From Elusimicrobiota bacterium (GTDB lineage: Bacteria > Elusimicrobiota > Elusimicrobia > F11), in the NCBI GenBank assembly GCA_022072025.1, contig JAJVIP010000003.1, positions 64,001 to 103,985 of the forward strand: DNA of 39,985 nucleotides, written 5' to 3'. Below the pieces are notes generated by a model that saw only the letters and a list, made by a program, of their open reading frames with translations, made no database searches and had not been told where the DNA came from. Every line of letters begins with the position of its first letter. Position 1 is the stretch's first letter. This document shows positions 9,853 to 39,807 of this stretch, in pieces. Position numbers and translations under genes: made by a program.

Positions 9853-10092
9853 ATGCCTGGGGACTGGTCATATGAAAATGACCAAGATAAACCAGAGATG
9901 ATCTTCTCCCGCAAGGATGAAGATGGTATCTATGTAATAACAAAAATTAATAAGTATCCCTTGCGGAAAATACTCCACACTGAGGATATTTATGAATATA
10001 TAGTCTTGGAAGTTGTAAGAAAGACAAAACTATATATGACAAGTTTGGACTATAAAAAACAACAAGTTATGCACGAATTAACTAAAATATGA
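9853..10092 (+). CDS. small hypothetical protein, start uncertain
   Basis: The frame is open from 9775, and the ATG at 9853 avoids a 71-bp overlap with the glycosyltransferase. However, the upstream residues (RLRNWVLRRLSYLMPGDW) look protein-like, so a start at 9784 or 9775 is possible. With the later start it has 79 residues, polar and beta-rich. An AGGAG lies about 13 nt before 9853, rather far. It overlaps the next gene by 4 bp. No family is recognised. Confidence 0.5.
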   Translation: MPGDWSYENDQDKPEMIFSRKDEDGIYVITKINKYPLRKILHTEDIYEYIVLEVVRKTKLYMTSLDYKKQQVMHELTKI

Positions 10093-15178: not shown

Positions 15179-15729
15179 AGATTTTGGTAATAGCTGCCCA
15201 TCCAGACGATGAAGTTCTCGGTTGTTGGGGAACAATCCTTAAACACAAAGAGGCTGGAGATGAGGTAAGAATTGAGATTATTTCTGCGGGTAGAGATGAT
15301 CCCAATGACCAAAAGTTTGATGTCCTCCCAGTAAAACAACTGGCAGATCTAATCCATGAGTATGTAATGGATTTTCACCCCGATATTGTCTATACCCATA
15401 ATAAACATGACATTAACCAAGATCATCGTAGAGTCTATGAAGCAACCATAATCGCTTGCCGTGGAGCATGGGTAGCACAAAAGATTTATGCCTACGAGGT
15501 CGCTACGCTGTCACAGGCACCTGGTTTTACCCCCAATCACTATGTACGGCTACCTCGCCCATCCATTGAGGCTAAAATTGATTACATGTGGAAACACTAT
15601 CAAGGAGAGATGAAATGTTATCCCCACCCCCGTTCTAGTGATGGTATAATGAGAATGGCTCAGTGGCGCGGGATGGAGGTTCAATCCGACTGTGCTGAAG
15701 CATTTGAAGTTATAAGGAGTATCGAATGA
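15175..15729 (+). CDS. PIG-L/LmbE-type N-acetylglucosamine deacetylase
   Basis: The gene starts with GTG at 15175, inside the stop codon of the preceding gene. The 184-residue product has the zinc-binding HPDDE motif (residues 9-13) and the second motif HDINQDHRRVYEAT typical of the PIG-L/LmbE family, which removes acetyl groups from N-acetylated sugars. The middle also contains an FHPDIVYTHNKHD segment. It may act on a precursor or on the finished glycan. Length agrees with short family members. Confidence 0.85.
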   Translation: MKILVIAAHPDDEVLGCWGTILKHKEAGDEVRIEIISAGRDDPNDQKFDVLPVKQLADLIHEYVMDFHPDIVYTHNKHDINQDHRRVYEATIIACRGAWVAQKIYAYEVATLSQAPGFTPNHYVRLPRPSIEAKIDYMWKHYQGEMKCYPHPRSSDGIMRMAQWRGMEVQSDCAEAFEVIRSIE

Positions 15730-21037: not shown

Positions 21038-21599
21038 GCTACCTACAAAGAAAACTCATGATTGGCCAGCTCTCAAAAAAGAGTTTTTGGCAAGTGAGTA
21101 TGACACAGTATCAGACTATCTTAAATTTAAGGGTATGCGACCAGTGAGTTGGTTAAACCAAACCACTGGATGGAGGGCTGAAAAAGATGAGATCAAAAAG
21201 AAGGCTCTGGAAAGATCTAAACAACATTTAATTAATGGGGAAGCCCACGATTTAAATGAGGTTAGAGATAGACAGGCTCGCCTCGCTAGGTTTATGCAGT
21301 TGAAGGGGACTGCCTCTCTAAAAACACTAAACCCCAAAGATGTAGAAGAAGCTAGAAAATTAATTGTATCTGGAATGGAAACGGAGCGAAAGGCTCTAGG
21401 AATGGACGCAGCAAGACCAACCAGTCTTACTCAAATTAATATTGGTCCAAAAACAAACCTAGACAAGCTCCTGGAAGGAATGGATTATGAAGGAATTCTC
21501 AAACTTATTGCCGAGCTTAGGGAACACAGAGCTGGAATCATTGGAGAAGCAACTGTTGTTAATGGCTCGTCAAAAGTTGAAGAAGGAGAAACTGTCTGA
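21021..21599 (+). CDS. possible terminase small subunit
   Basis: The 192-residue protein is charged and mostly helical, with an N-terminal region that could be a helix-turn-helix (DWPALKKEFLASEYDTVSDYLKFKG) and a central coiled-coil stretch. It sits immediately upstream of, and overlaps by 38 bp, the terminase large subunit gene, the usual place for the DNA-recognising small subunit. The call rests on position and general character. The start at 21021 is preferred to 21003 from a GGAG about 10 nt upstream. Confidence 0.6.
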   Translation: MKPGHRLPTKKTHDWPALKKEFLASEYDTVSDYLKFKGMRPVSWLNQTTGWRAEKDEIKKKALERSKQHLINGEAHDLNEVRDRQARLARFMQLKGTASLKTLNPKDVEEARKLIVSGMETERKALGMDAARPTSLTQINIGPKTNLDKLLEGMDYEGILKLIAELREHRAGIIGEATVVNGSSKVEEGETV

Positions 21600-23187
21600 T
21601 TACTGGACTTGGGTAAGAGCAGTTTGGCTTAATGCTAGGGGGAAGCCCCTCACCTTCGACAATAGACATTATCTTAAAATGGTCTACCAGGATCAGTTTA
21701 AGAGTCTTGTTTTTACAAAGTCAGCCCAGATGGGTCTTTCTGAACGGGGTATTTCTGAGGCCACTTGGGTTGCTGACCAGCTAGATAAAGTTACCCTCTA
21801 TACTTTCCCCGCCCAAATCCAGCTCCAGGACTTTGTACAAGCTCGTGTCAACCCAGTTATTAACACATCCGAATATCTAAAGTCTAGAACTGAAGAAGTG
21901 GATGAAAAAATTCATAAGTTGGGGCTCAAGAAAATTGGTAAGGGATTTATCTATTTTCGTGGATCTCAAAATGAGAAGCAGATAATCTCGGTTGATGCTG
22001 ATATGGTGGTTCTGGATGAGCGCGACCGCTTTAGTGATGATAGTATCCCCTACATTGATAAGCGTATGCTTGGATCAGATCTTAAGTGGCGCAGGGAAAT
22101 TTCAACCCCTACTCTCCCAGATATGGGAATTCACAAATCATACTTAGACAGCGACCAAAGAATTTGGGAAATAGAATGTAAGGCTTGTGGGTTGTGGCAG
22201 GAACTAGATATTTTTGAAAACATTAACTTTGATAAAAGTATTTGTTTTTGCAAAGGATGTCTGAAAGAAATCGATAGACTCGGGGACGGGAGGTGGAGGG
22301 CACTTAAACCAGAGAGAACTGAGGTTCATGGATATAAAGTTAATGGTCTTTATAATCCAATGGTTGATGTTGATCAGATTGTAAGAAAGTATAAAAATGC
22401 AAACCTAAATGGATTTTCAGAGTTACAACAGTTCTTTAACCAGGACATCGGGATTCCATATGAAATTAAGGGGCAGAGCTTACAATTAAGTGATCTTGAA
22501 AAGTGTCGCAGGGATTATAATATACCCTATAATACTAAACATAATACCTTTGCTGGGTGCGATGTTGGGAACACTAAACATCATATGGTTGTTGTCCAAA
22601 GAAGGGGGAATTCTTTACTGAGGGTTGTGTGGGCGGGGGTGGTAAATAGCTTCTTCGGACCACAAAATTCAGTTGAATCTGTGATGGAAACATATGGAGT
22701 TAATCGCCTGGTAATAGATAAAAAACCTCAAACTACCATGGTAGCAAAACTTATTGAGAAGTATGGGAAGAGGGTTTATGCCTCTAACTACCCCAATATG
22801 ATCTTTTCGGTTAAAAACTATTTTAATTGGGACGATGTAAAAAGAGAACTTGATGTTGACAGAACAATCAGTTTGGACTATCTTATAAGTGATATACAAA
22901 ATGAAAGGATTGAGCTCCCTGGGAATATTAATTCGGTAGAATCATTCTACGATCAGCTAAGATCATCTGTTCGCATTACAGAAAAAAATAAGCGGACTGG
23001 TATTGAAACTGCTCGGTGGGTAGAAAAAAAGGCAGATCACTATCTACATGCCATGAACTACGCAAGAATGGCTCAAATAGGAATTAAGTCCTCTCAGGCA
23101 TTACTAGACTACTACCGTGAGCCAGAAGAAGGACTCACACCCAATCTTGTGGATTGGATACGCGTCAACGGATCGCGTTTGTCTTAA
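21562..23187 (+). CDS. terminase large subunit, GpA type
   Basis: The 541-residue protein has a deviant Walker A, KSAQMGLSE (near residues 53-61; GpA-type terminases read Q-x-G-x-S/T), and a Walker B MVVLDERDRF (148-157). Next come a CxxC...CxxC zinc-type segment (ECKAC and CFCKGC) and a C-terminal nuclease domain beginning GCDVGNTKHHMVVV. It cuts concatemeric DNA and powers its translocation into the prohead. The start at 21562 is the first ATG in the region; a longer frame reaches back to 21487. Position before the portal gene supports the call. Confidence 0.88.
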   Translation: MARQKLKKEKLSDYWTWVRAVWLNARGKPLTFDNRHYLKMVYQDQFKSLVFTKSAQMGLSERGISEATWVADQLDKVTLYTFPAQIQLQDFVQARVNPVINTSEYLKSRTEEVDEKIHKLGLKKIGKGFIYFRGSQNEKQIISVDADMVVLDERDRFSDDSIPYIDKRMLGSDLKWRREISTPTLPDMGIHKSYLDSDQRIWEIECKACGLWQELDIFENINFDKSICFCKGCLKEIDRLGDGRWRALKPERTEVHGYKVNGLYNPMVDVDQIVRKYKNANLNGFSELQQFFNQDIGIPYEIKGQSLQLSDLEKCRRDYNIPYNTKHNTFAGCDVGNTKHHMVVVQRRGNSLLRVVWAGVVNSFFGPQNSVESVMETYGVNRLVIDKKPQTTMVAKLIEKYGKRVYASNYPNMIFSVKNYFNWDDVKRELDVDRTISLDYLISDIQNERIELPGNINSVESFYDQLRSSVRITEKNKRTGIETARWVEKKADHYLHAMNYARMAQIGIKSSQALLDYYREPEEGLTPNLVDWIRVNGSRLS

Positions 23188-23196
23188 AGGAGAAAT

Positions 23197-24939
23197 ATGG
23201 GAGTTTGGGATAATTTACTCAACAGATTAGTTAGTCCTATTATTGAAGATAAAGTAAAAGCTAGAGTATCTGAACAGTTATCAGTTAGTGCTAGTCAAAA
23301 TATTCTTAAGGGGTTGGCGATGGCTAATTCTACCCCTATTTCTGGCATGGGTTATGGAAGCAAGGACTCTAGATTAATCCCTAGGGGTGTTCCTGTTCAA
23401 ACCCTGCGCGACTTTGCTAAATTCTATCCGATCTTAAGATCGTGTATTAATTACCGCAAATCCCAAATGACCTCTCTTAGTTGGGATATTTCTCCAGTAG
23501 AAGTAGTCAAACAAGATGAAAAAGAGAAAATGAAGGGCGGAATTAACGCCGTTAAAGATTTTCTTAAATATCCAATGGGAGATAACAATACTTCTTTCAG
23601 AGAGTTTATTGATAGAATAATGGAAGACTTATATGTGCTGGACACCGTTGCAATATATAAGCGGAGAAATCGGGGCGGGGGACTCTTTGGGTACTTGCCA
23701 GTTGATGCCGCTACCATCGAACTTGTTTTGAATGATGATGGTACTACCCCATTACCCCCAGATCCAGCCTATGTTCAAAAAATAAATGGAATGGTTCACA
23801 CAGATCTTTCATTAGATGAAATGATCTATAAAATGGCGAACCCCAGAACCAATAGTCCTTATGGGCTTAGTTTGGTTGAAACCCTCATTGTGACCGTTAC
23901 TACAGCCCTTAAACTAAGTTCTTATAACTTATCCTATCTTACTGAGGGGAATATCCCCGAGGGGTTTGTAGAACTTCCAAAAGATATTGCCAGTGATCCA
24001 GATCAACTCAAAGCTTGGCAGGAGGCATGGGACTCTCTCTTCTCTGGTAATCCAAAATTCCAGCGTAAGATTAAGTTCCTTCCAGAGGGGATGAAATACA
24101 CAGCCACTAAAAAGCAAGAAGAAATGCAGTTTGAACGCTTTGAAAAATGGCTTCTTCTTAATACCTGCTCTGTTATGGCTGTCCCCCCACAGGCTATCGG
24201 ATTCCAATTTGATCGTGGTAAGGGAGCAACTGAGGCAGAATGGGAGATTGGTAAGGAACGGGGAGCCATCCCAACAGCCGCTTTCTTTAAAGAAATCTTT
24301 GACAAGATTATCCAACAAGATCTTAAACACCCAGAACTCCAACTAGTATGGACAAACCTTAATCCAACCAATAAGAAAGAAGAGGCTGATGTCTTTAAGG
24401 CACTAGTGGGAACTGGGGCAGTCTCGGTTGACGAGTGGAGAATCGCGGAGGGATATGATCCAATCGGTCTTGGCCAGTATATTATGACCCCAGTTGGGCC
24501 AGTTATGGCAAAAGACTTTGTAGAGATGTCCGAAAAAGGAACTAATCCATTTATTCCTAAGCCTGGAACAAACCCAAATGGTAAAAATGGTACTCCAGAA
24601 AATACCGTTCCAGAACAAAAGAAACAGCCAGAGCAAAAAACTAAAGTAGCTGGTCTTAATCTTGATCAACCAGAAGTTGTCGAAGAGTTAAAAAAGTGGA
24701 AAAGAGCCTCTATCAACGATCTTAAAAATGGTCGTGACTACCGCGACTTTACAACAGATATTGTTGATATGCGTACTCAGTCAATTATAAAAGCTGGGTT
24801 GGCATCGGCAAAAGACAAAGAGTCGGTAGACCAACTCTTTGATCCATTTATTACTCACGAAAACAAAGTTATAAAGGCCATGGTGGATCTTTATGAAGAC
24901 ATCGTGAGGGTATCAACAAATGAAAATCCAGAAGGTTAA
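23197..24939 (+). CDS. phage portal protein (HK97-like)
   Basis: The 580-residue protein directly follows TerL and precedes the MuF gene, the classic portal position, with an AAAGGAGA site. Portal-like segments are FYPILRSCINYRKSQMTSLSW near the N-terminus, NPRTNSPYGLSLVETL, and in the middle CSVMAVPPQAIGF followed by VFKALVGTGAVSVDEWRIAEGYDP. The C-terminus is an acidic, Pro-rich and Lys-rich tail. Portals form the dodecameric ring for DNA entry and exit. Confidence 0.85.
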   Translation: MGVWDNLLNRLVSPIIEDKVKARVSEQLSVSASQNILKGLAMANSTPISGMGYGSKDSRLIPRGVPVQTLRDFAKFYPILRSCINYRKSQMTSLSWDISPVEVVKQDEKEKMKGGINAVKDFLKYPMGDNNTSFREFIDRIMEDLYVLDTVAIYKRRNRGGGLFGYLPVDAATIELVLNDDGTTPLPPDPAYVQKINGMVHTDLSLDEMIYKMANPRTNSPYGLSLVETLIVTVTTALKLSSYNLSYLTEGNIPEGFVELPKDIASDPDQLKAWQEAWDSLFSGNPKFQRKIKFLPEGMKYTATKKQEEMQFERFEKWLLLNTCSVMAVPPQAIGFQFDRGKGATEAEWEIGKERGAIPTAAFFKEIFDKIIQQDLKHPELQLVWTNLNPTNKKEEADVFKALVGTGAVSVDEWRIAEGYDPIGLGQYIMTPVGPVMAKDFVEMSEKGTNPFIPKPGTNPNGKNGTPENTVPEQKKQPEQKTKVAGLNLDQPEVVEELKKWKRASINDLKNGRDYRDFTTDIVDMRTQSIIKAGLASAKDKESVDQLFDPFITHENKVIKAMVDLYEDIVRVSTNENPEG

Positions 24940-26393: not shown

Positions 26394-26912
26394 ATGCCAG
26401 CAACATTTAGCGTTGCCCAAAGTTACGGTACAGGGACTGGATCTATTTCTCTACTTGGAGCGACAGGTTCACTTTGGTACCTTAAACAAGCAACAAATCA
26501 AGGAACTAATGACTATAACACAGCAGGATCAAACATCCCCGCTGGACAAAACTCATTTGCTTTCCACGCTAGACCTTATTTCTCATCTACTGCTACTAAC
26601 ACCTTTAGTAATATTCGTTTCTATATGTCCACAACCTGGACATCTACAACTTATAACGCCGTTGGTACAAGTGCAGCTGGATATACACAGTCTACGGCGT
26701 CCTCAACAGCAGCAACTGATGGTGGAGCTTCAAATGTAGCCGTTCCAACAGGATCAGCTACTAACCAAGCTATCGCACTCGGATCACTTACTCTTGGAAA
26801 CGCATCTGGATACGGACCAACATTCCTCCGTGTTCAATTGACAACCAACGCATCTGCTCCAGGTGGAGATACTCCATACGGCGGATTCACATGGGTTTAT
26901 GACGAAAGTTAG
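26394..26912 (+). CDS. putative virion structural protein, Ser/Thr/Ala/Gly-rich
   Basis: The 172-residue protein starts after AAAGGAGGTGA, one of the strongest ribosome sites in the window, which suggests high expression. It is rich in Ser, Thr, Ala, Gly and Asn, with few charges and predicted beta strands, and ends RVQLTTNASAPGGDTPYGGFTWVYDES, like immunoglobulin-like or jelly-roll virion proteins. It may be a capsid decoration or other abundant virion protein. It is short for a major capsid protein. Confidence 0.65.
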   Translation: MPATFSVAQSYGTGTGSISLLGATGSLWYLKQATNQGTNDYNTAGSNIPAGQNSFAFHARPYFSSTATNTFSNIRFYMSTTWTSTTYNAVGTSAAGYTQSTASSTAATDGGASNVAVPTGSATNQAIALGSLTLGNASGYGPTFLRVQLTTNASAPGGDTPYGGFTWVYDES

Positions 26913-26944: not shown

Positions 26945-26975
26945 ACCTCCAACTAAATTAATGGTTGGAGGTATT
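26942..26975 (+). promoter_or_regulatory. ribosome-site-masking hairpin
   Basis: AATACCTCCAAC (26942-26953) and GTTGGAGGTATT (26964-26975) are perfect 12-bp complements with a 10-nt loop. The right arm contains the GGAGG ribosome site for the start at 26976, so a transcript including both arms hides that site. Confidence 0.82.
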
Positions 26976-27533
26976 ATGTTAAGTCCTATAGCACAAGATT
27001 TTAATTTTTGGAATTGGTTGGGGGGGATGATTGACGGTGATGGCTGTTTTAGCATTAGCCTATCTAGACAACATAATTCTAAAACTAGAAGAATTTGTGT
27101 TACCCCACAGGTAGCCGTTACTGCTAGAGCAGATAGGGTCGAAGAACTAGAATATATATTAGAAAATACTAGAATTGGCAAAATATACACTAGGGGGAGA
27201 AGCCCATATCCAGTCTCGGCATGGCAAACTACATCTGGAAAAGACTCCCTAGATGTTGCCAAAAAAGTTCTCCCATATCTAGTTTTAAAAAGAAAAAAAT
27301 GCGAAGCCTTTATTAAGGTGTTGGAATATTGGATTAATACCTCCAATCCAGATAGACTTGGAGATAAAAGCAGGGCACGAGGAAGGGGTCAAAGATTGCG
27401 CACACAAGAACAAATGAAGATTATGATCAAGAATGCTTGTGAAATAAACTCAGACAGACAGACTCGTCGCTATAAAGACAAATTAACATACGAGCAGTGG
27501 GAACCAATTATAAAAGAATGGTATCCCAACTAG
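26976..27533 (+). CDS. LAGLIDADG homing endonuclease
   Basis: The start at 26976 (GGAGG 4 nt upstream) is preferred over the in-frame ATG at 26961, which lies in the hairpin. The 185-residue protein has one LGGMIDGDGCF motif (residues 15-25), the helix whose acidic residues bind the catalytic metal, followed by a strand-rich DNA-binding domain and a basic tail. With one motif it should act as a homodimer. It is free-standing between structural and glycan genes, with promoters before and after. It is a likely mobile gene. Confidence 0.88.
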   Translation: MLSPIAQDFNFWNWLGGMIDGDGCFSISLSRQHNSKTRRICVTPQVAVTARADRVEELEYILENTRIGKIYTRGRSPYPVSAWQTTSGKDSLDVAKKVLPYLVLKRKKCEAFIKVLEYWINTSNPDRLGDKSRARGRGQRLRTQEQMKIMIKNACEINSDRQTRRYKDKLTYEQWEPIIKEWYPN

Positions 27534-28196: not shown

Positions 28197-29807
28197 ATGT
28201 CAGGATTAAATGGGACTTTCAGATCATACTTCGGGGCAATAGCAGTCCCAGTGCTAGATCCAGGAAACGGAACTATTAGTAATGTTACACACGATTGGTC
28301 TAACGCAATGGCTGGGTTGGGAGGAGGATTGGGAGTTACGGTGTTACGCCTTGAAATCAAGAACTACCGCGTAGATATTGCTAAGGAAAGACTTGTAGAA
28401 CAAGCTATTAAAAACAACTGTCAATGGATTCTCTTTGTAGATGACGACACCATCCCACCTGGTGATGCTCTCATGAAAATGATTAAGCTTTGGAGATCTG
28501 ATCCAAAGTATAAGGTAATATCTGGTGTTTACTGGTCTAAATCAGATCCTTCTGTACCACTAGTCTTTAGAGGTAATTTAGAGGGGAGTTATTGGGATTG
28601 GAAAAATACAGATCTTATTGAGGCGGATGCTGCTGGGGCAGGATGTCTATTTGTAGATATTAATGTCTTTAAGAGTATGCCCAAGCCATGGTTCTCTTGC
28701 AACTACTACTTTGAAGATCCCCGCGGGCAACTAGATCTTCAAAAATGGGGACTAACAGATCGTCTCGGGGAGGAACTCCTTAAGGGAGATAATGCTAACC
28801 CAGAGATCGTTGCCGAGATTGAAAAACAACTCAAACAAACTGCTAAGGAAATTTCCGAGGTACAGGGCGGGGCGATTAATCCAGAGTTATTCAAAAATAA
28901 GCGGAGAGATGGGGCTACCACCGAAGACCTCTTCTTCTTCTCTAAGATGAAAGAAGCTGGTCATAAACTTTGGATCGATTGTTCTATCCAATGTTGGCAT
29001 CAAGACAAGCGAACTGGAAAAGTGTGGGGACTACAACCAGATATGCCACAAGCCCTTCCTCGCTATGTTGGGAAAATGGAAAGAGATAAGCAGGTTGTTG
29101 TGGATATTGGGTGTGGTAGTGCAAACTACTTCCTCCCAGAAGGTGACCCAATCCGCATTGATCTAGATGAGAGAGTCAACCCAGATATTATCGCTGATGC
29201 TCGCCAGATCCCCCTAGAAGACGAGTTTGCCGATGTAGTGTACTCATCACACCTACTCGAACACTTCTCATTCAGAGAGACTGTCTCAGTACTCAGAGAA
29301 TGGGAGAGAATACTAAAGGTGGGGGGCAAGTTAAAGATTATTGTTCCAAACTTAAAGTGGGCATCTCGTAACATTCTTAACAATGTAGAAGACGGAGATG
29401 TCGCTGAACGATCCATGTTTATGTATTACTCCGCCCAAAAAGGAGATCTCCGCGAAGCTTATACAGACTTCCATAAGGCTGGGTTTACTCCAGAATCTCT
29501 CGGTGGACTCCTTAGTAGAGTCGAGGGACTTGGAGATATTGAAATCCACACCACTGAAGGGAACTTTGGTAACTGGAAAGAACATGAAAATCATGAAGGT
29601 TTTGGTTATAACATCCTCGCTATCGCAACCAAAAAACACCATGTCTGGCCAGTAAGCCTACAGATCCCAATCATGAAACAAGAACAAATGCAGGCAAACC
29701 AACTCCCAGTTGTCCCAGAGGAATCACCAATAATAGAAGCTAAGGTTGAGGAGAAAAATGCCAAGCGAAAGAAAGCGGTCAAAAAAGCCAGTAAAACCAC
29801 TAAGTGA
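28197..29807 (+). CDS. fusion: glycosyltransferase-like domain plus SAM methyltransferase
   Basis: The 536-residue protein joins two domains. The first (about residues 1-290) looks like GT-A: IKNNCQWILFVDDDTIPPGD with an aspartate-rich DDD, VISGVYW, AAGAGCLFVD and FFSKMKEAGHKLWID. The second (about 300-480) is a methyltransferase with VDIGCGSANYFLPEG, SSHLLEHF, and ILKVGGKLKIIVPNL. A Lys/Glu-rich tail closes the protein. It could glycosylate and methylate the same acceptor, for example to cap a chain. AAGGAG precedes the start. Confidence 0.82.
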   Translation: MSGLNGTFRSYFGAIAVPVLDPGNGTISNVTHDWSNAMAGLGGGLGVTVLRLEIKNYRVDIAKERLVEQAIKNNCQWILFVDDDTIPPGDALMKMIKLWRSDPKYKVISGVYWSKSDPSVPLVFRGNLEGSYWDWKNTDLIEADAAGAGCLFVDINVFKSMPKPWFSCNYYFEDPRGQLDLQKWGLTDRLGEELLKGDNANPEIVAEIEKQLKQTAKEISEVQGGAINPELFKNKRRDGATTEDLFFFSKMKEAGHKLWIDCSIQCWHQDKRTGKVWGLQPDMPQALPRYVGKMERDKQVVVDIGCGSANYFLPEGDPIRIDLDERVNPDIIADARQIPLEDEFADVVYSSHLLEHFSFRETVSVLREWERILKVGGKLKIIVPNLKWASRNILNNVEDGDVAERSMFMYYSAQKGDLREAYTDFHKAGFTPESLGGLLSRVEGLGDIEIHTTEGNFGNWKEHENHEGFGYNILAIATKKHHVWPVSLQIPIMKQEQMQANQLPVVPEESPIIEAKVEEKNAKRKKAVKKASKTTK

Positions 29808-29958
29808 GTGTACTAAGCCGTTTGTATTTGAAATAGACGGCAAGGGGGCTAGGATTGTGCCCGCCAGTGCCGCCCATTTTTTCTCCCTTAAAATCATGGG
29901 TAGAGCTCAGAATTTTTATAATTTAGAGGATTATGACTATGACCCCTTTAAGGTTTAA
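29758..29958 (+). CDS. small basic hypothetical protein
   Basis: The start at 29758 has GAGGAG upstream and gives 66 residues. The N-terminus is basic (PSERKRSKKPVKP), then there is one cysteine and a short strand-rich section. It overlaps the end of the preceding fusion gene by 50 bp and the start of the next by 26 bp, so it could be a true overlapping small gene or a by-product. No family is recognised. Confidence 0.45.
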   Translation: MPSERKRSKKPVKPLSECTKPFVFEIDGKGARIVPASAAHFFSLKIMGRAQNFYNLEDYDYDPFKV

Positions 29959-31597
29959 CTTCTCTGGCTGGACAGATGATAACTCTGGCTATGGCAAAGC
30001 TAATATCCACTTAATGGAGTCTCTAGAAAAACTTACCAACGGGGGGATAAGCGTGGAGTGGGAAAGAAAAATATGTTCTGATCCAGAGCATATGGTTAAT
30101 TATACCCAAGCTCAAAAGGATGTTCTCCTGAAACCATTTACTTTAGAAAAAATTGGGATTATTCAATCTACTCCCAACTGGTTTAAAAACATCCACAACG
30201 ATTACAAAATTGGTTGGTCGATGATTGAGAATAACCATATAGGTAAAAAATGGGTGAATTTTTGTAATGAGATGGATCATATTTTTGTTCCCTCTGCCCA
30301 ACTTGTCCCGATATTTCAGAAGTATAAAGTAACTAAACCAATTACGGTAATCCCAGAGGGGTATGATCCAGAAGAGCATAAATATATTGATCGCCCGAAG
30401 AGAGATATATTTACTTTCCTGACCGTAGGGTGGATGGATGAGCGTAAAAACTGGGACACAATGGTACAGGCCTTTATGTCTGAGTTTGAACCCGACGAAC
30501 CAGTCCGATTCCTAATCAAAAATACTTGCCCACATTTTGGGTACCAAAATCCTATAGATAAGCGTATCCGCACAATAGATCACTACCTAACTCCTGATGA
30601 GCTCCAAAAACTTTATGGTATGGCAGACTGTTTTCTCTTCCCAACCAGGGGAGAGGGATTTGGTATGCCCATAGTTGAGGCAATGGCAACTGGACTCCCC
30701 ACAGTACTAACAAATTGGCTGGGAGCTTCTGATTTATGTGACGAGAGATACAACTATCCCATTGACCCAATAGACATTAGTTATCGCTACTTCCGCCCCG
30801 AACAACAGGGATTTATGGCTAACATTGACCCCGCCGAGCTCATGTACTGGATGAGACATATTTATGAACACCAGGACGAGGCTAGGGAGAAGGGAAAACT
30901 GGCATCAGAATGGGTTAAAAATAACTGGACATGGGACCATGCTGCCCAAAAGATCATCAATGTAGTGGAAGAAATATCTAAAACACTCCCATCGTCATGG
31001 AAAGATCCATATGAATTCTCATTTGTCTGGGACTTTGAAACCAGTAGTGATAGTAAGGCAATTAATCTCTTAGAAAGATATAAGGATAAGGAAGTTAAAT
31101 TCTTACAAATTGGAGCCTATGAGGGTAGATTTACTCTCTGGTTGCTACACCATATTTTAACTAATCCAAAAGCCAATATAGTAGATATTGACCCATGGAT
31201 AAGCACAGAAACCTATCTTACTAATGGGGCTACTCCACCCCTATCGCTTGTAGAAAAAAGATACCATCAAAACATATTTAAGAACCAAGATAATTATAAG
31301 GTGACTACTATTAGGGGTAAGTCTGAAGAAGAGTTGCTAAAACTTACAAACCAGTTTGATTTTATCTTTGTTGATGGTTCTCACCTAGCTCAAAATGTAA
31401 TTATAGATGCTGAAGAGGCGCTCCGCTTATGTAAGTCGGGGGGAGTAATCCTCTTTGATGATTATATGTGGAAGATGGGCGAAGAGATCAGTTCGTCCGC
31501 ACGCCCCCATGAAGCAATTAATGAATTTTTAGTCAATCACATGGGTGAATATAAAATTATATATAAAGATTATCAACTAGCTATCGAAAAATTATGA
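29933..31597 (+). CDS. fusion: GT4-like glycosyltransferase plus methyltransferase
   Basis: The 554-residue protein has an N-terminal GT-B domain (about 1-345) with IPEGYDPEEH, TVGWMDERKNWDTMVQAF and LFPTRGEGFGMPIVEAMATGLP, the E-x7-E region of GT4. The C-terminal domain (about 375-550) resembles Methyltransf_24: FLQIGAYEGRFTLWLL, VDIDPW, FDFIFVDGSH, and CKSGGVILFDDYMW. This is the second glycosyltransferase-methyltransferase fusion in a row, of different fold types. ATG 29933 has AGAGGA upstream; 29939 is an alternative. Confidence 0.83.
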   Translation: MTMTPLRFNFSGWTDDNSGYGKANIHLMESLEKLTNGGISVEWERKICSDPEHMVNYTQAQKDVLLKPFTLEKIGIIQSTPNWFKNIHNDYKIGWSMIENNHIGKKWVNFCNEMDHIFVPSAQLVPIFQKYKVTKPITVIPEGYDPEEHKYIDRPKRDIFTFLTVGWMDERKNWDTMVQAFMSEFEPDEPVRFLIKNTCPHFGYQNPIDKRIRTIDHYLTPDELQKLYGMADCFLFPTRGEGFGMPIVEAMATGLPTVLTNWLGASDLCDERYNYPIDPIDISYRYFRPEQQGFMANIDPAELMYWMRHIYEHQDEAREKGKLASEWVKNNWTWDHAAQKIINVVEEISKTLPSSWKDPYEFSFVWDFETSSDSKAINLLERYKDKEVKFLQIGAYEGRFTLWLLHHILTNPKANIVDIDPWISTETYLTNGATPPLSLVEKRYHQNIFKNQDNYKVTTIRGKSEEELLKLTNQFDFIFVDGSHLAQNVIIDAEEALRLCKSGGVILFDDYMWKMGEEISSSARPHEAINEFLVNHMGEYKIIYKDYQLAIEKL

Positions 31598-32361
31598 TAA
31601 GTGGATTAATGGTTCTTAAAAATGGTCTAACTCTGGGATACCCATTTATTGAGGCTATTCTTTCTGTGATTGATTATGTAGACGAGATGGTAGTGGTAGA
31701 GTGTGAGTCCACCGATAAGACACTAGATGCTCTATGTGGACTACTAAATAAACACATGGATAAGCTCAAGATTAAGATCCATCCATGGGACTTTTCTGGT
31801 AAACAAGGTGAGAAAATTGGTGAGATCCAAACAATCTCTAAAAGATATTGCAATGGGGATACCATCCTCTGCGTTCAGGCTGACGAAATCTGGGATAGCG
31901 AGAGTATTAAGCTCGCAGTATCCTTACCAAAGTCTTATCCCTTAGTTGGGCTATTTAATTTCCCCTTTGATCATGTGGTCGGGAATTTCCAATTCCGCGG
32001 ACATAACTACGACTGGGCAGTGAGAATGTTTAAGAACGATCCCAGAGTAGAGTCTGAGGCGGATGGGTGGACTTGGTTTGGGCAGATGCCATACCTAAGT
32101 GTAGAATTGCCAGCCCCTATTTTCCATAGTGGATCTATCGGGTGGAGAAACAACTATACTAAGATTGTTAATCATGGAACTATATATAAAGATAATAAAC
32201 TATATCAATCTAACTCAAATGAGTACAAAAAAAGATTAGAAGAAAATAATCCAGAAGAGTTTTTATTAAAGAGAGAGTCTTCGTTTAATATCCCCGAGAT
32301 ACTAAAGCCGTTTTTGGGCGCTGAAAATTACTATGTACGAAAGGAACTCTATGAAAGCTAG
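31594..32361 (+). CDS. glycosyltransferase family 2-like
   Basis: The 255-residue protein begins MISGLMVLKNGLTLGYPFIEAIL, with VVVECESTDKT (the conserved D of the GT-A nucleotide loop) and CVQADEIWDSES (the DxD-type region QADE). It fits GT2 enzymes acting on glycan chains. There is no clear ribosome site and it starts 4 bp inside the previous stop, so translation is likely coupled. It overlaps the next gene by 11 bp. Confidence 0.75.
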   Translation: MISGLMVLKNGLTLGYPFIEAILSVIDYVDEMVVVECESTDKTLDALCGLLNKHMDKLKIKIHPWDFSGKQGEKIGEIQTISKRYCNGDTILCVQADEIWDSESIKLAVSLPKSYPLVGLFNFPFDHVVGNFQFRGHNYDWAVRMFKNDPRVESEADGWTWFGQMPYLSVELPAPIFHSGSIGWRNNYTKIVNHGTIYKDNKLYQSNSNEYKKRLEENNPEEFLLKRESSFNIPEILKPFLGAENYYVRKELYES

Positions 32362-33052
32362 TATTATTACCCTCTGCTGGAACCATCTAGAAGATGTCAC
32401 CATTCCCTTTATTCCAGAAATACTTAAGACTCAAGACATAGAATACGAACTTATCTTTGTGGATAACGGCTCCGAAGATGGGACATATGACTATCTTTCT
32501 AAGAAATTCTGGGGTACCCCCAATGTAACTGTTCTTAAACTTAATGAGAATCGGGGGTGGTCGGGGGGAAATAACTATGGATTTGAGTATGCTAAGGGTG
32601 ATTATGTTTGTTTCATTAATAATGATGTCATAATAGACGACCCATTATGGTTGAAGAAAATGGTTGATTATGCCGAAACTAAACCCAAAACAATTCTTGG
32701 TCCAGAGATTGTGTCCGACCAACCAGCGGCAATGTGGGAAGATAAAATCCTCCCGTACTTAAATGGCTGGTGTGTATTCTCCCCGAGAGAATTTATGGAG
32801 CAATATGGGTGTTTCCATAAGGCTTTTAACACTCCATATCTAGAGGATGTGGAATTCTGTGTACGACTAGAAAAGTATGGGTGGAACTGGGAGCTATTCC
32901 CCCTAGGCATAAGACATCTCGGAGCTCGCTCAACCTATGATCAGATAGACATGTGGGGTAATGCCAATGCTAGTCGACAAACATTTATCAAGCTCATGGA
33001 TAAGCTTGCGACTAATCCTTCGATTGAAGAGTATCTGAATTATAGGGTATAA
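32351..33052 (+). CDS. glycosyltransferase family 2
   Basis: The start at 32351 with AAAGGA upstream gives a clean GT2 N-terminus: ASIITLCWNHLEDVTIPFI, FVDNGSEDGTYDYL, RGWSGGNNYGFEYAKGDYVCFINNDVII and EDVEFCVRLEKYGW. The last motif provides the catalytic base. The protein has 233 residues, a minimal rhamnosyltransferase-like length, so a dTDP-sugar donor (cf. RmlA at 7756) is possible. It ends just before a leaderless-looking promoter. Confidence 0.86.
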   Translation: MKASIITLCWNHLEDVTIPFIPEILKTQDIEYELIFVDNGSEDGTYDYLSKKFWGTPNVTVLKLNENRGWSGGNNYGFEYAKGDYVCFINNDVIIDDPLWLKKMVDYAETKPKTILGPEIVSDQPAAMWEDKILPYLNGWCVFSPREFMEQYGCFHKAFNTPYLEDVEFCVRLEKYGWNWELFPLGIRHLGARSTYDQIDMWGNANASRQTFIKLMDKLATNPSIEEYLNYRV

Positions 33053-34091: not shown

Positions 34092-35444
34092 ATGGCTACA
34101 AACGCCATTCAGTTTAATGGCTCCACCCAATATGGTCGTGTTGATAACTTTTCAGGACTAGATGGTCTAACGGATCATACTGTGGAAATGTGGGTAAAAA
34201 ATAGTTCCAGCTCAGTCGCCTATTCTCCATATTTTGTTATTGATGATGGGGTAAACAGATTTTCTAAAGTTACAACTGAAAATGGGACGGGAAATGAAGG
34301 ATTTAACTTTTCAGTCAACTTTTCGGGCAGTGATGCTGATGGTTATGAATCAAGTAGTAGGTTTGTAGTGGATACATGGAAATATTTAGCACTGGTTTAT
34401 GACCACACACTCTTAAAAACTAGTGTGTTTGTCGGCGGCGTTGAAAATAGTTTTTATGATTTACAGTCAACTGCTACTGGAACAATACAAGACTCAACAG
34501 GATTTAATCTTAATATAGCCAGGGATGGTAGGGTGGCAGAATATCTTAACGGATATATTGGGGGATTTGTCCGCGTATGGAATCGAAAATTAACTGGCGG
34601 GGAGATTTACTACAATTATGATAAGATTCTAACTCCCGCCAATGAAAGTGGTTTGATCATAAATTGTAATTTTACTGAGGGGTCAGGGACTACGGTTGAT
34701 AATGATGCAACTCCAGGGGAAGATATTGATTTATATAATAACCCAACCTGGGTCACTGGACCAACATTAAATACAAAAACATATCCCTATACATCATTGT
34801 ATCGCCAAATAACAGAATCAACTGATGATGCAGAACAATATAAAGATACAAATAATGTGTCTTTGACATCTAGTGATTATGAAATCCCAGCTGATGGGGG
34901 AACATCACAATATATTGGATTACGCTTTCAGAATATTACAATCCCGAAGGGGGCGACAATACAAAGTGCATATCTCAGGTTTGCTGGCGACTCAGATCTT
35001 TCTGGAACGGAAGTAACCCCTATAATTTATGGAGAAGATGCAGATAGTTCATCTACATTCACGACCACAAATAGCGATATTTCTAATAGAACGCTCACAA
35101 CCGCCTCTACTAACTGGCCCATCTCCAGCTCCACCCACATGGCGATAACATCAACGCCCGATATTAAAACAATTGTACAAGAAGTTATTGATCGTGCGGG
35201 GTGGAGTAGTGGTAATAATATATCCTTCATTGTTGATTGTTTATCAGATACAACTCTGGTTGCAAGGTTTATTTCATATAATGGTCAACCATATTCCTCC
35301 GCAATGTTACATGTGGAATATTCCCTAAGTTTTCCAAGCTCCACAAGTAAATCTAATATAAAAACCACCTACTATTGTGGATATAACTATGATTGGAAAA
35401 TAGCTGGGACTGAGGGGGCTCAAAATAGAGGCTATCAATCATAG
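34092..35444 (+). CDS. LamG-like fibre protein with carbohydrate-binding-type domain
   Basis: The 450-residue protein has an N-terminal concanavalin/LamG-like beta-sandwich (residues about 1-230): AIQFNGSTQYGRVDNF, TVEMWVKN, WKYLALVYDH and YLNGYIGGFVRVWNRKLTGGEI. The second domain (about 240-420) has ITIPKGATIQSAYLRF, PIIYGEDADSS and IKTIVQEVIDRAGWSSGNNI, a domain frequent in bacterial surface proteins. The C-terminus has SKSNIKTTYYCGY, which matches the start of the repeat protein at 36937. It is probably a receptor- or sugar-binding fibre part. AAGGAGG precedes the start. Confidence 0.75.
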   Translation: MATNAIQFNGSTQYGRVDNFSGLDGLTDHTVEMWVKNSSSSVAYSPYFVIDDGVNRFSKVTTENGTGNEGFNFSVNFSGSDADGYESSSRFVVDTWKYLALVYDHTLLKTSVFVGGVENSFYDLQSTATGTIQDSTGFNLNIARDGRVAEYLNGYIGGFVRVWNRKLTGGEIYYNYDKILTPANESGLIINCNFTEGSGTTVDNDATPGEDIDLYNNPTWVTGPTLNTKTYPYTSLYRQITESTDDAEQYKDTNNVSLTSSDYEIPADGGTSQYIGLRFQNITIPKGATIQSAYLRFAGDSDLSGTEVTPIIYGEDADSSSTFTTTNSDISNRTLTTASTNWPISSSTHMAITSTPDIKTIVQEVIDRAGWSSGNNISFIVDCLSDTTLVARFISYNGQPYSSAMLHVEYSLSFPSSTSKSNIKTTYYCGYNYDWKIAGTEGAQNRGYQS

Positions 35445-35477: not shown

Positions 35478-36338
35478 ATGTTATATACACCAAATGAAGC
35501 GACCCACTTCTGGACATTAGATAATTTTGGAGCTAATCCTAGTGCCACGCCTGGGACATCTGTTACTCCTGGAATTTCTAATGCCGAAGGATCGTGGACT
35601 GAAATAATATCTGATACTAACTTAACACAAGATACATATGGATTTTTCTTATGGATACATTCCAACGCCGTAGCAACGCCAACTACGGGTAAAAACTTTT
35701 TACTTGATATAGGTACTGATCCTGCGGGGGGCACATCATACTCTGCTATCATCTCAAACATTGTATGTGGATCGGCTGGTCCAATAACCGCAGCGGGTGG
35801 ACATCAATTCTTCTTTCCAATATTTATCAAGGCAGGAACAGCTATAGCAGCAAGAATACAGGGATCTCACGGCACTGCTACCGCTTCGAGAGTTGGGATT
35901 AAATTATATGGTCAAGCAAGTAGACCAGAAATGTTCCCCACTGGTTCTTTTTCAGAAACTATTGGCACAATTACAAATTCTAATGGCGTGTCATTCACCC
36001 CAGGAAACGCAGCAAATGGGTCGTGGACATCTTTGGGCACAACAACTAATCCTCTTTGGTGGTGGAATATCGCCTATCAGGTAGATAATGGCACCATCAC
36101 AGCTGAGTACACCTATATTGAATTAGCTTATGGGGATGGATCTAATAAACACATTATTATGGAGCGTATGCACCAAGGGACAACTTCTGAGCAAACTGGT
36201 TCTATATTAAATGGTAACACCAACTTTTTTGAATGTTATGCACCAGTTCCAGCTGGTTCAACAATGTATATAAGGGGGAGATGTCTTAATGCTCCCGACA
36301 CTGGATATAACGCCGTAGCAATCGGCATAGGAGGTTAA
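35478..36338 (+). CDS. hypothetical virion-surface protein with duplicated domain
   Basis: The 286-residue protein seems to be two related jelly-roll-like halves. Residues about 20-145 contain TPGISNAEGSWTEIISDTNL, then PIFIKAGTAIAARIQG and RVGIKLYGQ. Residues about 165-286 contain FTPGNAANGSWTSLGTTTN, then APVPAGSTMYIRGRC and NAVAIGIGG. The matching elements are the turn before GSW and the AGxxxxxRxxG segment. It has no ribosome site and probably has a leaderless transcript. Such proteins are typical of fibre or tail-surface structures. Confidence 0.65.
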   Translation: MLYTPNEATHFWTLDNFGANPSATPGTSVTPGISNAEGSWTEIISDTNLTQDTYGFFLWIHSNAVATPTTGKNFLLDIGTDPAGGTSYSAIISNIVCGSAGPITAAGGHQFFFPIFIKAGTAIAARIQGSHGTATASRVGIKLYGQASRPEMFPTGSFSETIGTITNSNGVSFTPGNAANGSWTSLGTTTNPLWWWNIAYQVDNGTITAEYTYIELAYGDGSNKHIIMERMHQGTTSEQTGSILNGNTNFFECYAPVPAGSTMYIRGRCLNAPDTGYNAVAIGIGG

Positions 36339-36340
36339 AT

Positions 36341-36703
36341 ATGGCAATAGCAGAATTAAGAACTGGCACCAAGGCAGTTGACACTACAGAATGGTCACTC
36401 GCAGACGCATCTACTAATGGTGAAGCATATTCAACCGCCACCCCACTGACTGACGATGGGGTTTTTCAGATTTTCTTGGATGTATCAGATATGATCGCAG
36501 GCGACCAACTACAAATTAGAATATATGAGAAGGTTCGCAGTGGTGACACCCAAAGAATAATTTATCAGTCTATCCTTACGGGGGCTCAATCTGAGCCAAT
36601 CTGGGTATCGCCATCATTAATTTTATTGCATGGGTGGGACATTACATGTGACGCCCTAGCTGGGACAATAACTGTGAACTGGTCTATTAGACAGGTTGCA
36701 TAA
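36341..36703 (+). CDS. hypothetical virion-type protein
   Basis: The 120-residue beta-rich protein starts after GGAGG, 2 bp behind the duplicated-domain gene. It contains FQIFLDVSDMIAGDQLQIRIYEKV and ITVNWSIRQVA, a beta-sandwich-like pattern found in phage fibre and baseplate subunits. A structural role is inferred from position. Confidence 0.6.
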   Translation: MAIAELRTGTKAVDTTEWSLADASTNGEAYSTATPLTDDGVFQIFLDVSDMIAGDQLQIRIYEKVRSGDTQRIIYQSILTGAQSEPIWVSPSLILLHGWDITCDALAGTITVNWSIRQVA

Positions 36704-36712
36704 GAAATATTT

Positions 36713-36826
36713 ATGTCGTGGACATATCAACCATTATTATTAAGTGCCGCTGAGTTATCACAAATTATTACCTTTGTGAAGTCTATTCTTGTCTATCAAG
36801 CTATTAATCGTAGCCATTATTGGTAA
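36713..36826 (+). CDS. possible small peptide
   Basis: A 37-residue frame with a hydrophobic mid-section (LSQIITFVKSILVYQAI) starting 9 bp after the previous stop. It has no good ribosome site. Its stop codon overlaps the end of the -35 region of the promoter at 36820. It may be a short membrane-active peptide or not translated. Confidence 0.35.
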   Translation: MSWTYQPLLLSAAELSQIITFVKSILVYQAINRSHYW

Positions 36827-36848
36827 TTTTCATATCCTATAGTATAAT
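36820..36848 (+). promoter_or_regulatory. promoter with CTATAGTATAAT core
   Basis: TTGGTA (36820-36825), a 17-bp spacer ending CTATAG, and TATAAT (36843-36848). The predicted start near 36855 is just before the first hairpin of the leader. Confidence 0.65.
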
Positions 36849-36854
36849 GTGTTT

Positions 36855-36930
36855 AGGCTTATCCATAAGCTAGGGGAATACAAGCCCTGTTAGTAGTAAA
36901 TGGACAGGCAGCTTTTAAGCTGTCTTTTTT
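36855..36930 (+). ncRNA. short structured leader RNA
   Basis: GCTTA/TAAGC with loop TCCA (36857-36870), then AGGG/CCCT (36872-36888), and a terminator stem (36903-36924) make a compact RNA of about 76 nt. The coding gene at 36937 starts 6 bp after it. The plan matches the RNAs at 2538 and 26075. Confidence 0.5.
36903..36930 (+). terminator. Rho-independent terminator
   Basis: GACAG...CTGTC with an inner CAGCTT/AAGCTG palindrome is followed by six T residues (36925-36930). Full expression of the giant repeat protein probably requires read-through or its own start beyond it. Confidence 0.72.
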
Positions 36931-36936
36931 GGATTT

Positions 36937-39807
36937 ATGGCACGATTAGGTAGATCACAACCATTCCCACCACAATATGGCTATCCTCCTGGGATACTTT
37001 ATCAACCCATAGCTTATAGTAAGGCTAACTCAGTTAAAGCAAACATAGTTCAAACCTATTATTCTGGTTATTTACCAAGTGGTGGAGTGATAGATAGTTA
37101 TGATGTTGCTGGGTCAGAGCCAGCTGCATTTGGCGCGGGGGGAGATGGCACGGCCATAGGACAAACATTCACTGGTAATGGTTCAACCCTAGATACTGCG
37201 AAGTTTTATCTTAAGGGCGCACTTTTTACATCTGGTAATGTATATGCAAAAATTTATTCTATTACTGGAACCTATGGAGTAGATGCCGTTCCAGATACCC
37301 TATTGGCAACATCTGATGGGGTTGACGTAGAGACAATCCCCACAGAGAGTATAAGCTTAACCACCTTTACCTTCACTGGAGCGAATAAAATAACCCTAGA
37401 AAATGGGACTCATTATGCCGTGGTCTGCGAATATGCTGGATCAGGAACAATAGATATATATGTTGACACCCTAACCGTTTCTCATGATGGTAACTGGTGC
37501 GTATATTTTATGGGAGCGTGGGTTGGAATGGATGCCGCCGATACTCTGTTTTATGTCTATGGTGATGCCTCAATACCTGGATCATCAGTTAAGGCCAATA
37601 TTTATCTACTCCAAGCACAAGACAACTCGGTCAAAGCTAATATATTAGCTGGAGTTACCAAAGATAACAGCTCAAAAAGCAATATTGTATCTGAAGGGCA
37701 ATCTCCCAACTCGGTTAAGTCAAATATCATCTCCACATATTCTCAATCAAACCAAGCTAGGGCTGATATTCTTTCAGTTGTATCAGACAACAACTCAGTT
37801 AAAGCTAATATCTTAGTAACTGATAATATTATAGGCAACCAAGCTAAGGGGAATATCCTCTCCACATATAACCAAGACAGCTATTCTAAGTCTAATATTG
37901 TTGTTACATATTCAGCAGATAACTCGGTTAAGAACAATATTGTTTCTACTCTCTCCAACAACAACTCTGTAAAAGCAGACATTGTAGCGGCCGCAGTCTC
38001 GGTTACAAAAGATAACTCAGTACTTTCAAACATTGCTGGTCCCCCTGGGCAATATGTAAAAGCTAATCTTTACTGGTTGGGGCTCGCCGACAACTCAGTT
38101 AAGTCCAATATTCTTGCAGTAGTGACCAAGGATCAGTCGTCTAAAGCAAACATAGTTTCTGTTGGTCAACAACCAAATGATGTCAAGGCCAATATTCTGG
38201 CTGGTGTAAGCACGGGCAACCAGACTAAATCCAACATTGTAGAGACTATCTCCCAATCCAACCAATCCAAGGCGAATATTGTGGCGGAAGTTTCTGATAG
38301 TAACCAAGCTAAAGCTAATATTGTTAGTACTTATATTCAAGACAATAGCACTAAAGCCAACATCCTAGCTGGATATACATCTAACAACTCAGTCAAAGCA
38401 AATATTCTGGCTATCTCCTCCCAAGAAAACCAAACTAAATCTAATCTCCTAGCTACCATTTCGAAGGATCAATCATCTAAGGCCAATATTCTATCGTTGG
38501 GACAGAACGCCAACGATGTCAAGGCTAATATTTTAGCCGTAGTAACTTATGACTCTCAAGCTAAATCCAACATCTTGGCTCAGTACTCCGTCGATAACTC
38601 TACAAAATCTAATATTCTAGCTAGTGTCGCACTTGATAATAATACCAAGGCTAATATTGTAAAACTTGAGTCCTCCGCCAACCAGACTAAAGCTAATATT
38701 ATAGAAACCGTCTCTCAAGACAATGATGTTAAGGCAAATATTGCCGTAGCGGTTGCCTCCAATAAAGACAACGATGTTAAAGCTAATATCCTTCAACAGT
38801 ACTCCGCCGATAACTCGGTCAAGGCATCTATTGTAATTACTCCTACCAACGATAACTCGGTACTGGGGAATCTCCTCGCCAGCGTTGCCAAAGACAGTTC
38901 GGTTAAGGCCAATATCTTGGCACTAGGCCAGCAACCAAATGAGACTAAAGCTAATATCCTCCAGACATACACCAGCGAGAACAGTTCTAAATCTAATATT
39001 CTCTCTATAGAGACTAAGGAAAACAGTGTTAAGGCCAATATCTTTGCTGTAGGGCAATCTGATAACCAGGTTAAGGCCAATATCCTCGCCGTGCCATCAA
39101 ATGACAACAACACCAAGGCTAATATTTTGGCGACCAACTCCAACGACAACTCAGTAAAAGCAAGTATTGTAGTTACATACTCTGTAGAAAATCATGTCAA
39201 GTCTAACCTTCTCACCCCTCTCTCTAAGGAAAACAGTGTTAAGGCAAGCATTGTTACTACGGGGCAGTTTACTAATGATGTTAAGGCAAACATACTCTCG
39301 GGGGTATCGTTCGATAACCAGACTAAAGCCAATATTCTTGACATAATTAGTGAGGACAATCGTGTCAAAGCCAATATTCTAGCCTCAGTTTCAGAAACAA
39401 ACAATATTAGGGCTAACCTGCTTACAACCCCAACCAAGGATCAGTCAGTTAAAGCCAACATTCTCGCCGTGGGGCAATTTACCAACGATTCTAAAGCTAA
39501 CATTCTAGCTTCCGTGTCTCAGGATAATAGTGTCACCGCCAACCTTACCCTCATGCCATCACATGAGAATATGGTTAAAGCAAACATTGTCGCTACATCA
39601 TCTATAAATAACTCCGTCAAGGCTAACATCAGCACAGTTATAGATAATAGCGTTAAGTCAAGCATCTACATCCCAATTGTTTACCGTCCAAAGCCAATGG
39701 TGTATACTGACGGTAATCTACCCTATAGTAGTAAAAAGAATGTATATGGTGATCCATGCAGAAACCCATATAGTCAAAAGCGGGGACCATACTCCCCAAG
39801 AATCTAA
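36937..39807 (+). CDS. giant 14-residue-repeat fibre-type protein
   Basis: The 956-residue protein has an N-terminal Pro/Gln-rich start, a first KANI-type unit (NSVKANIVQTYYSGY), a beta-sandwich-like domain (about residues 55-220, including AIGQTFTGNG and ITLENGTHYAVVCEYAGSGTI), then nearly fifty repeats of about 14 residues to residue 915, and a basic Tyr/Pro-rich tail. The consensus is D-N-S-V-K-A-N-I-L-A-x-V-S-x. The regular polar/hydrophobic pattern suggests a long beta-rich or beta-helical shaft. It probably forms a fibre or adhesin. The ribosome site is weak (GGA), and a terminator lies just upstream. Confidence 0.8.
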   Translation: MARLGRSQPFPPQYGYPPGILYQPIAYSKANSVKANIVQTYYSGYLPSGGVIDSYDVAGSEPAAFGAGGDGTAIGQTFTGNGSTLDTAKFYLKGALFTSGNVYAKIYSITGTYGVDAVPDTLLATSDGVDVETIPTESISLTTFTFTGANKITLENGTHYAVVCEYAGSGTIDIYVDTLTVSHDGNWCVYFMGAWVGMDAADTLFYVYGDASIPGSSVKANIYLLQAQDNSVKANILAGVTKDNSSKSNIVSEGQSPNSVKSNIISTYSQSNQARADILSVVSDNNSVKANILVTDNIIGNQAKGNILSTYNQDSYSKSNIVVTYSADNSVKNNIVSTLSNNNSVKADIVAAAVSVTKDNSVLSNIAGPPGQYVKANLYWLGLADNSVKSNILAVVTKDQSSKANIVSVGQQPNDVKANILAGVSTGNQTKSNIVETISQSNQSKANIVAEVSDSNQAKANIVSTYIQDNSTKANILAGYTSNNSVKANILAISSQENQTKSNLLATISKDQSSKANILSLGQNANDVKANILAVVTYDSQAKSNILAQYSVDNSTKSNILASVALDNNTKANIVKLESSANQTKANIIETVSQDNDVKANIAVAVASNKDNDVKANILQQYSADNSVKASIVITPTNDNSVLGNLLASVAKDSSVKANILALGQQPNETKANILQTYTSENSSKSNILSIETKENSVKANIFAVGQSDNQVKANILAVPSNDNNTKANILATNSNDNSVKASIVVTYSVENHVKSNLLTPLSKENSVKASIVTTGQFTNDVKANILSGVSFDNQTKANILDIISEDNRVKANILASVSETNNIRANLLTTPTKDQSVKANILAVGQFTNDSKANILASVSQDNSVTANLTLMPSHENMVKANIVATSSINNSVKANISTVIDNSVKSSIYIPIVYRPKPMVYTDGNLPYSSKKNVYGDPCRNPYSQKRGPYSPRI
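37621..39681 (+). repeat. array of nearly fifty 42-bp coding repeats
   Basis: The array encodes the 14-residue repeats of the protein at 36937. Units of 13-17 codons vary at the third codon base and at several residues, so the array is old or kept by protein-level selection; a recent expansion is unlikely. The strongest conserved core is K-A/S-N-I-L/V. Confidence 0.85.

Follow-up and report, generated by a model that had tools for sequence, protein, structure and literature searches.

The question raised by this locus is what a phage would do with a protein built largely from one short repeat, a 14-residue unit around the core Lys-Ala-Asn-Ile (KANI). The window, that is the whole analysed stretch of 39,985 nucleotides, comprises the last 40 kb of contig C3, which derives from the assembly of a bacterial bin. 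The ends of C3 share 127 identical bases, and this overlap closes the contig to a circle of 103,858 bp representing a complete siphophage genome. The binning with a bacterium does not by itself establish the bin as the host of the phage. As set out below, the repeat is genuine and conserved, has not been described under any name and belongs to a broad phage family; the kind of device that it probably represents, a virion fibre or linker, is already known.

Layout and repeat unit of the array protein

The array protein is organized as follows (window coordinates).

36937..39807, + strand: whole ORF of the 956-aa array protein, ATG start
36937..36972, + strand: N-terminal peptide MARLGRSQPFPP, common to array proteins of other phages
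37021..37062, + strand: isolated first KANI unit KANSVKANIVQTYY, aa 29-42
37087..37575, + strand: non-repeat beta-sandwich domain, aa ~51-213, ~160 residues
37576..39681, + strand: main array of 49 units plus a truncated last unit, consensus x-D-N-S-V-K-A-N-I-L-A-T-V-S
39664..39804, + strand: C-terminal tail, basic and Tyr/Pro-rich (...PYSSKKNVYGDPCRNPYSQKRGPYSPRI)

An earlier note on this DNA had described a 956-residue protein of nearly fifty KANI units, mostly 14 residues apart, and the detailed layout bears this out. A 28-residue leader, opening with the N-terminal peptide, precedes the first unit; after the sandwich, the 49 cores of the main array span aa 218-894, with the truncated last unit at aa ~906. 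The main array accounts for 73% of the protein, and the spacing of its units is 14 except for a few steps of 12, 15, 16 or 17. Residue autocorrelation at lag 14 reached 0.381, compared to 0.092 ± 0.010 in 1,000 shuffles (maximum 0.131). The unit columns read x, D, N, S, V, K, A, N, I, L, A, T/V, V/Y/G and S, of which Asn-3 (41 of 49 units), Lys-6 (44/49), Asn-8 (44/49) and Ile-9 (43/49) are nearly fixed. An antisense reading of the locus was rejected on account of stop codons throughout.

Adjacent units share on average 41% of their residues and 48% of their bases, and unit similarity is nearly independent of the distance along the array. Identical residues in adjacent units used the same codon at a frequency of 0.38, while 0.395 was expected from codon usage. 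This lack of codon sharing above expectation indicates that synonymous sites are saturated, that the DNA copies are old and that the residues are held by selection at the protein level, in agreement with the diverged DNA copies and protein-level pattern proposed earlier. The codons of Asn-3 (31 AAC : 10 AAT) and Asn-8 (13 AAC : 31 AAT) show opposite preferences (Fisher p = 3e-5), which points to a residual trace of one ancestral unit.

The repeat had been put forward as unnamed, with a profile search suggested as a check. Searches of Pfam, NCBIfam and PDB with the window repeat gave no match above cut-off and thus no confident match to a described repeat family; PHROG matches of the array protein stayed at chance level, and a literature search for a 14-residue phage repeat found nothing. 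Pfam DUF5622 and ATP-synt_ab_Xtn and the NCBIfam GroES model were sub-threshold noise, and the PDB profile matches (coiled-coil heptads, repeat designs) reflected composition only. In a tblastn search of annotated phages, the window protein retrieved only Aeromonas phage BUCT552, whose tail protein (L018 1299-5729, QVW27843.1) has a C-terminus consisting of a run of 14-residue repeats, LRSSVQAELLAPYN. These are superficially in phase with the KANI unit and obtain only 5 bits with the profile, which is near noise. A match on a Thermomicrobium plasmid was spurious, the antisense of a coiled coil, and that in G096 appears to be a comparable helical protein read in antisense; the pattern matches in genome contigs were, among the matches listed, chance or other repeats. 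Across 295 sampled genomes of the bin's phylum, a triple-core pattern matched only the window phage and one other genome, the latter through an Asp-rich repeat judged unrelated by its sequence.

Array relatives and their genomic setting

Relatives were collected with an iterated profile and two pattern scans of IMG/VR; some 50 related array ORFs, on about 40 contigs of uncultured phages, came to light. The model built from the window protein scored 792 bits on that protein and recovered 18 further ORFs at E < 1e-5; the iterated model recovered 59 ORFs at E < 1e-4, a count that includes some overlapping loci and at least four unrelated helical repeats. The helical, Ala-rich 14-residue repeats xAGFxKANIANTTAE (AFxKANIAN) of L031, L040, L043 and L052 were set aside as unrelated, since composition and flanks differ on inspection. 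Homologous arrays in independent metagenome contigs are 31-43% identical.

The arrays come in two flavours. The KANI flavour (xNSVKANIL) is found in L019/L021, L027, L033/L175, L037, L048 and L050, and the GKARI flavour (QTITGKARIQxxxT) in L209, L225, L198, L224, L055, L023, L025, L028, L024 and others. The longest strict run consists of 74 consecutive units (L209) and the largest array protein of 3,080 residues (L225). We define the superfamily KANI/GKARI by tandem 14-residue units with a core K-[AGS]-x-[ILV] in one phase. The window array carries this core in a single phase, both flavours have phase and core in common, and flanking domains cross between them. Homologues of the window sandwich occur in the array proteins of L025 (1.7e-28), L226 (twice, ~1e-16) and L186 (2e-16), and the C-terminal domain of L019 recurs in L225 (1e-29) and L025 (5e-26). 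An N-terminal MARxGRxQP peptide is common to the window protein, L023 (MARFGRGQPHKP) and L218 (MRLGRSQPFKP). On these grounds the two flavours are treated as one superfamily; alternatively, they might have arisen independently and exchanged domains afterwards. The PYxRKKxIYxxRV-type ending of the window protein is also present in L027, L050, L019 and L037. Many GKARI arrays (L225, L224, L198, L219, L209, L055, L186) end in a conserved non-repeat domain, EIIDRVRSQDLIDEITYVKS..., for which a Pfam search gave no convincing match. Cargo domains alongside the arrays include LamG, DUF2341 and choice-of-anchor-like and CBM-like sandwiches.

GKARI arrays matched the unnamed PHROGs 22904, 9300, 4429 and 25538 (E 5e-5 to 2e-11), suggesting that scattered members may already be clustered there; no single stretch passes alone, so these may be matches of repeat composition. 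The function of the clusters is unannotated and the KANI flavour is not covered by them. A tblastn search of annotated phages with two GKARI arrays gave no match, though the low-complexity filter may have hidden some. The repeat marks giant phage proteins, here of up to 3,080 residues, which are unnamed in current databases and occur in dozens of uncultured phages, and it provides an immediate handle for their annotation.

In the window phage the array gene lies in a structural gene block, preceded on the same strand by the following genes.

21487..24939, + strand: terminase large subunit and portal, which open the structural gene block
28197..33052, + strand: four glycosyltransferase / methyltransferase genes within the block, ahead of the array gene; the one at 31594-32361 is weakly matched only
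34092..35444, + strand: 450-aa LamG protein (PF13385, 7e-12) with a C-terminal single KANI unit SSTSKSNIKTTYYCGY
35478..36703, + strand: two small predicted virion proteins (286 and 120 aa) directly upstream of the array gene, no family match

On the circle the order is terminase (phrog_675, 4e-110), portal (6e-61), glycosyltransferases, LamG protein, array gene, S78-type prohead protease and SU10-type capsid protein (PF17236, 1e-6), then head-tail adaptor (phrog_442, 5e-9), Hc1 (weak), Neck1 (5e-6), minor tail protein, tape measure (4e-6) and Dit (7e-15). Outside the main gene, the KANI motif occurs four times in predicted proteins, as against 1.1 expected in shuffles, and three of the four lie in the LamG protein and in an 841-aa protein directly after Dit (C3:10717-13242). 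The single unit of the LamG protein is followed by TYYCGY, the first unit of the 956-aa protein by TYYSGY; in the 841-aa protein, about four units separate a glycine-rich domain from another domain. Two tail-region proteins outside the window (C3:10717-13242 and 13727-14911) open with the same glycine-rich domain, and the former matches part of the AgmC gliding-motility model (1e-25, below cut-off).

Also on the same strand, upstream of the array gene, positions 7720-16757 hold sugar pathway genes (nucleotidyltransferase, NAD epimerase, NeuB, cytidylyltransferase, PIG-L deacetylase, DegT aminotransferase and glycosyltransferases), which suggests that the phage makes a nonulosonic-acid-type sugar.

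The earlier note had proposed to look for variation of the repeat number in related phages, and such variation was observed. G098 (103,296 bp) and C3 are collinear between the capsid protein (71-82% identical) and Dit (43%), yet G098 carries four array genes of at least 2488, 377, 903 and 809 aa where C3 has one. Three array genes stand ahead of the protease in L019, and G102 has a single one of 1672 aa, sharing terminase (59%), portal (53%) and neighbouring genes with C3. The number of array genes per phage thus ranges from one to at least four and their lengths vary, while the core genes stay collinear. Homologues of the glycosyltransferases are also found with the arrays of G102 and G103.

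Predicted structure of the array and the sandwich

Hydrophobic and polar residues alternate through the core of both flavours. The GKARI profile has a hydrophobic moment of 2.5 near 180 degrees versus 0.5 at 100; the KANI profile (1.35 versus 0.5) has an equal peak at 80 degrees and is hence less clean. The beta-type pattern in the unit, from which a long beta-helical shaft had been proposed earlier, was thus recovered, but the shaft itself found no support in the prediction. An AlphaFold2 monomer of 12 array units, modelled with 24 in-register rows, was all-beta with two short strands per unit, at low confidence (mean pLDDT 50, pTM 0.31) and without a clear prediction of disorder; its best structural relative in the PDB reached only E 0.018. 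This model lends no support to a monomeric solenoid and fits an obligate multimer or a flexible linker equally. A period of two or three units was absent from the 11 arrays tested; turns of two or three units were therefore rejected, and 14 residues appears to be the structural unit. In the array of L198 (1805-6436), a higher-order period of five units (z 4.2) points to block duplication.

The beta-sandwich-like domain claimed between the first unit and the main array was recovered as strands in an AlphaFold2 model of aa 72-175 (pLDDT mostly 70-90). Its nearest solved fold was a capsid chain of cyanophage A4 (E 2e-3), followed by weaker-scoring matches to mycobacteriophage tail tips (Douge, Bxb1) and carbohydrate-binding modules (CBMs), the latter at E 0.05-0.09 only; no Pfam CBM family matched. 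Among predicted folds, uncultured phage proteins matched at 2e-6, and the domain weakly resembles choice-of-anchor R. Taken from the model, these likenesses suggest that the sandwich may bind glycans.

Several known systems offer themselves for comparison. The shaft of the adenovirus fibre is a triple beta-spiral, an intertwined trimer of ~15-residue repeats with alternating hydrophobic residues and a Gly/Pro turn. The KANI array resembles it in the short repeat, the hydrophobic alternation and its presumed place in a viral fibre, but Gly or Pro is not conserved in the turn: only 13 of the 49 units have either at position 13. The fibritin whiskers of phage T4 are neck-attached fibres formed by a trimeric coiled coil; neck attachment, presumed for the window protein, would be the likeness, and the beta pattern with no PDB sequence match is the difference. 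The curli beta-solenoid CsgA likewise consists of tandem beta repeats of variable number and kept length with N-x-hydrophobic-x-hydrophobic spacing, yet curlin repeats measure 23 ± 5 residues with Gln in both strands (23-residue repeat, QX10Q; PMC10192328), whereas the KANI unit has 14 residues without a conserved Gln pair and lies in a phage structural block. According to the abstract of a study on lactococcal 936 phages, their neck passage structure contains CBMs, and binding to the host was seen for one module of the neck and one of the tail (PMC6669499). The likeness is that of a siphophage neck appendage bearing CBM-type modules, and the sandwich model weakly matches the fold of the LP1005 neck passage structure (E 6e-4). 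That abstract reports no such repeat, and no sequence relationship to the window protein was found.

Position in the particle and proposed role

Wherever the main array genes and the tape measure gene are both visible, the former are located on the head/connector side. In L028, the only match to the free-standing adaptor of L178 (242 aa) is the C-terminus of an 870-aa array ORF (58%, 2e-97), where phrog_442 (head-tail adaptor) matches as well (2.3e-21), and the head-completion protein has its sole match at the C-terminus of the adjoining array ORF of 1,831 aa. The latter domain is 42-54% identical to those of L178/L024 (PF05521 5e-4, 21 bits versus a curated cut-off of 25). In this 36,947-bp record, both connector domains were found only as C-termini of array proteins; the record may be a fragment, so free copies could lie elsewhere. 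L024, L178, L213 and L232 have an array-head-completion fusion plus a free copy. Profile-profile comparison linked the fused domains to the adaptor (93.6%, E 2e-7) and Hc1 (94.4%, E 9e-8) of the window phage. The in-frame fusions, seen in the GKARI flavour and in the case of L028 on one contig, tie the family to the head-tail junction and suggest that arrays can hang from neck rings. The window phage has no connector fusion: its array is a separate protein whose attachment site we infer, and the position of its gene ahead of the protease and capsid genes would also fit a head fibre or a tail fibre.

We favour, at a probability of roughly 0.58, the reading that array proteins act in the head-neck region as virion fibres or linkers which display glycan-binding-like sandwiches, with arrays also present in a tail-tip protein. 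The 956-aa protein would then be a siphophage virion protein with a long beta-rich stalk of 49 units, probably extended as a fibre, anchored at the neck or head and carrying a putatively glycan-binding sandwich near its N-terminus. More generally, arrays may serve as all-purpose stalks or linkers attached to neck rings, LamG proteins and the tail-tip protein. The cargo domains and the location argue for display in glycan binding: such stalks would hold small binding domains off the particle and thereby widen its reach for surface glycans ahead of tail-tip engagement. The glycosyltransferases and sugar pathway on the same strand suggest that the stalk may itself be glycosylated. A bolder version, which we consider quite doubtful, sees a widespread, undescribed class of neck-ring-tethered beta fibres of strict 14-residue units in which the unit doubles as a docking strand; virion proteins that terminate in one unit, as the LamG protein does, would join the arrays of others, so that cargo is swapped and the anchor stays unchanged.

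The array could instead be the shaft of a tail fibre or of a receptor-binding protein at the distal tail, an unlikely reading in our view. The short array in the protein directly after Dit, a G098 array protein adjoining the tail-tip genes, the sandwich's resemblance to the Douge and Bxb1 domains and the match of the N-terminal part of L023 to minor tail protein PHROGs all point this way, as do the terminal repeats of the BUCT552 tail protein, although their likeness is near noise. The gene positions on the connector side of the tape measure and the connector fusions speak against the distal tail. Rather improbable is a flexible, mucin-like stalk with no folded shaft, whose units are glycosylated by phage enzymes. 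The composition of the main array (~14% Ser, 15% Asn, 6% Thr), the nonulosonate-type pathway and glycosyltransferases upstream, the homologues beside arrays in G102 and G103 and the low AlphaFold confidence agree with it; yet the conserved core, strict 14-residue spacing and beta alternation are unlike low-complexity stalks, which tolerate length drift, and the enzymes may modify the host surface or other virion proteins instead.

An undisplayed assembly factor, binding DNA or another polyanion through its Lys-bearing units or measuring length inside the head, is very unlikely. There is one Lys per unit and the gene adjoins the protease and scaffold-like genes, but the net charge is only ~+8 over 690 residues (59 basic, 51 acidic), the cargo domains are lectin-like folds, and total array length differs several-fold among phages with related capsid proteins and nearly equal genomes (103.9 and 103.3 kb). 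A translation artefact or chance repeat, in whose favour nothing was found, is hardly conceivable in view of an autocorrelation far beyond shuffles, homologous arrays in independent contigs and residues conserved while synonymous sites are saturated.

With display stalks of the head-neck region as the preferred reading, the family offers a natural series from few to 74 equal units, useful for relating fibre length to adsorption. A 14-residue beta repeat structure, should the array form one, would rank among the shortest of its kind and interest protein designers.

Further features were observed around the array gene. The 233-bp gap 5' of it (36704-36936) contains a sigma-70-like promoter (10/12, 36820-36848) and, directly before the start codon, a terminator-like hairpin (36906-36925); it could encode an RNA of ~80 nt, for which an Rfam search of the gap gave no match and the folding energy was ordinary. 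A 172-aa protein (26394-26912), possibly a small head decoration protein, has homologues near the arrays of G102 (84%) and G103 (32%). Among the structural genes, an ORF at 26961-27533 with WLGGMIDGDGCF looks like an inserted LAGLIDADG-type endonuclease. Outside the window, the phage genome contains GroEL-like (531 aa, C3:20137-21732) and GroES-like (97 aa, C3:21825-22118) sequences, the former kept in G098 at 52%.
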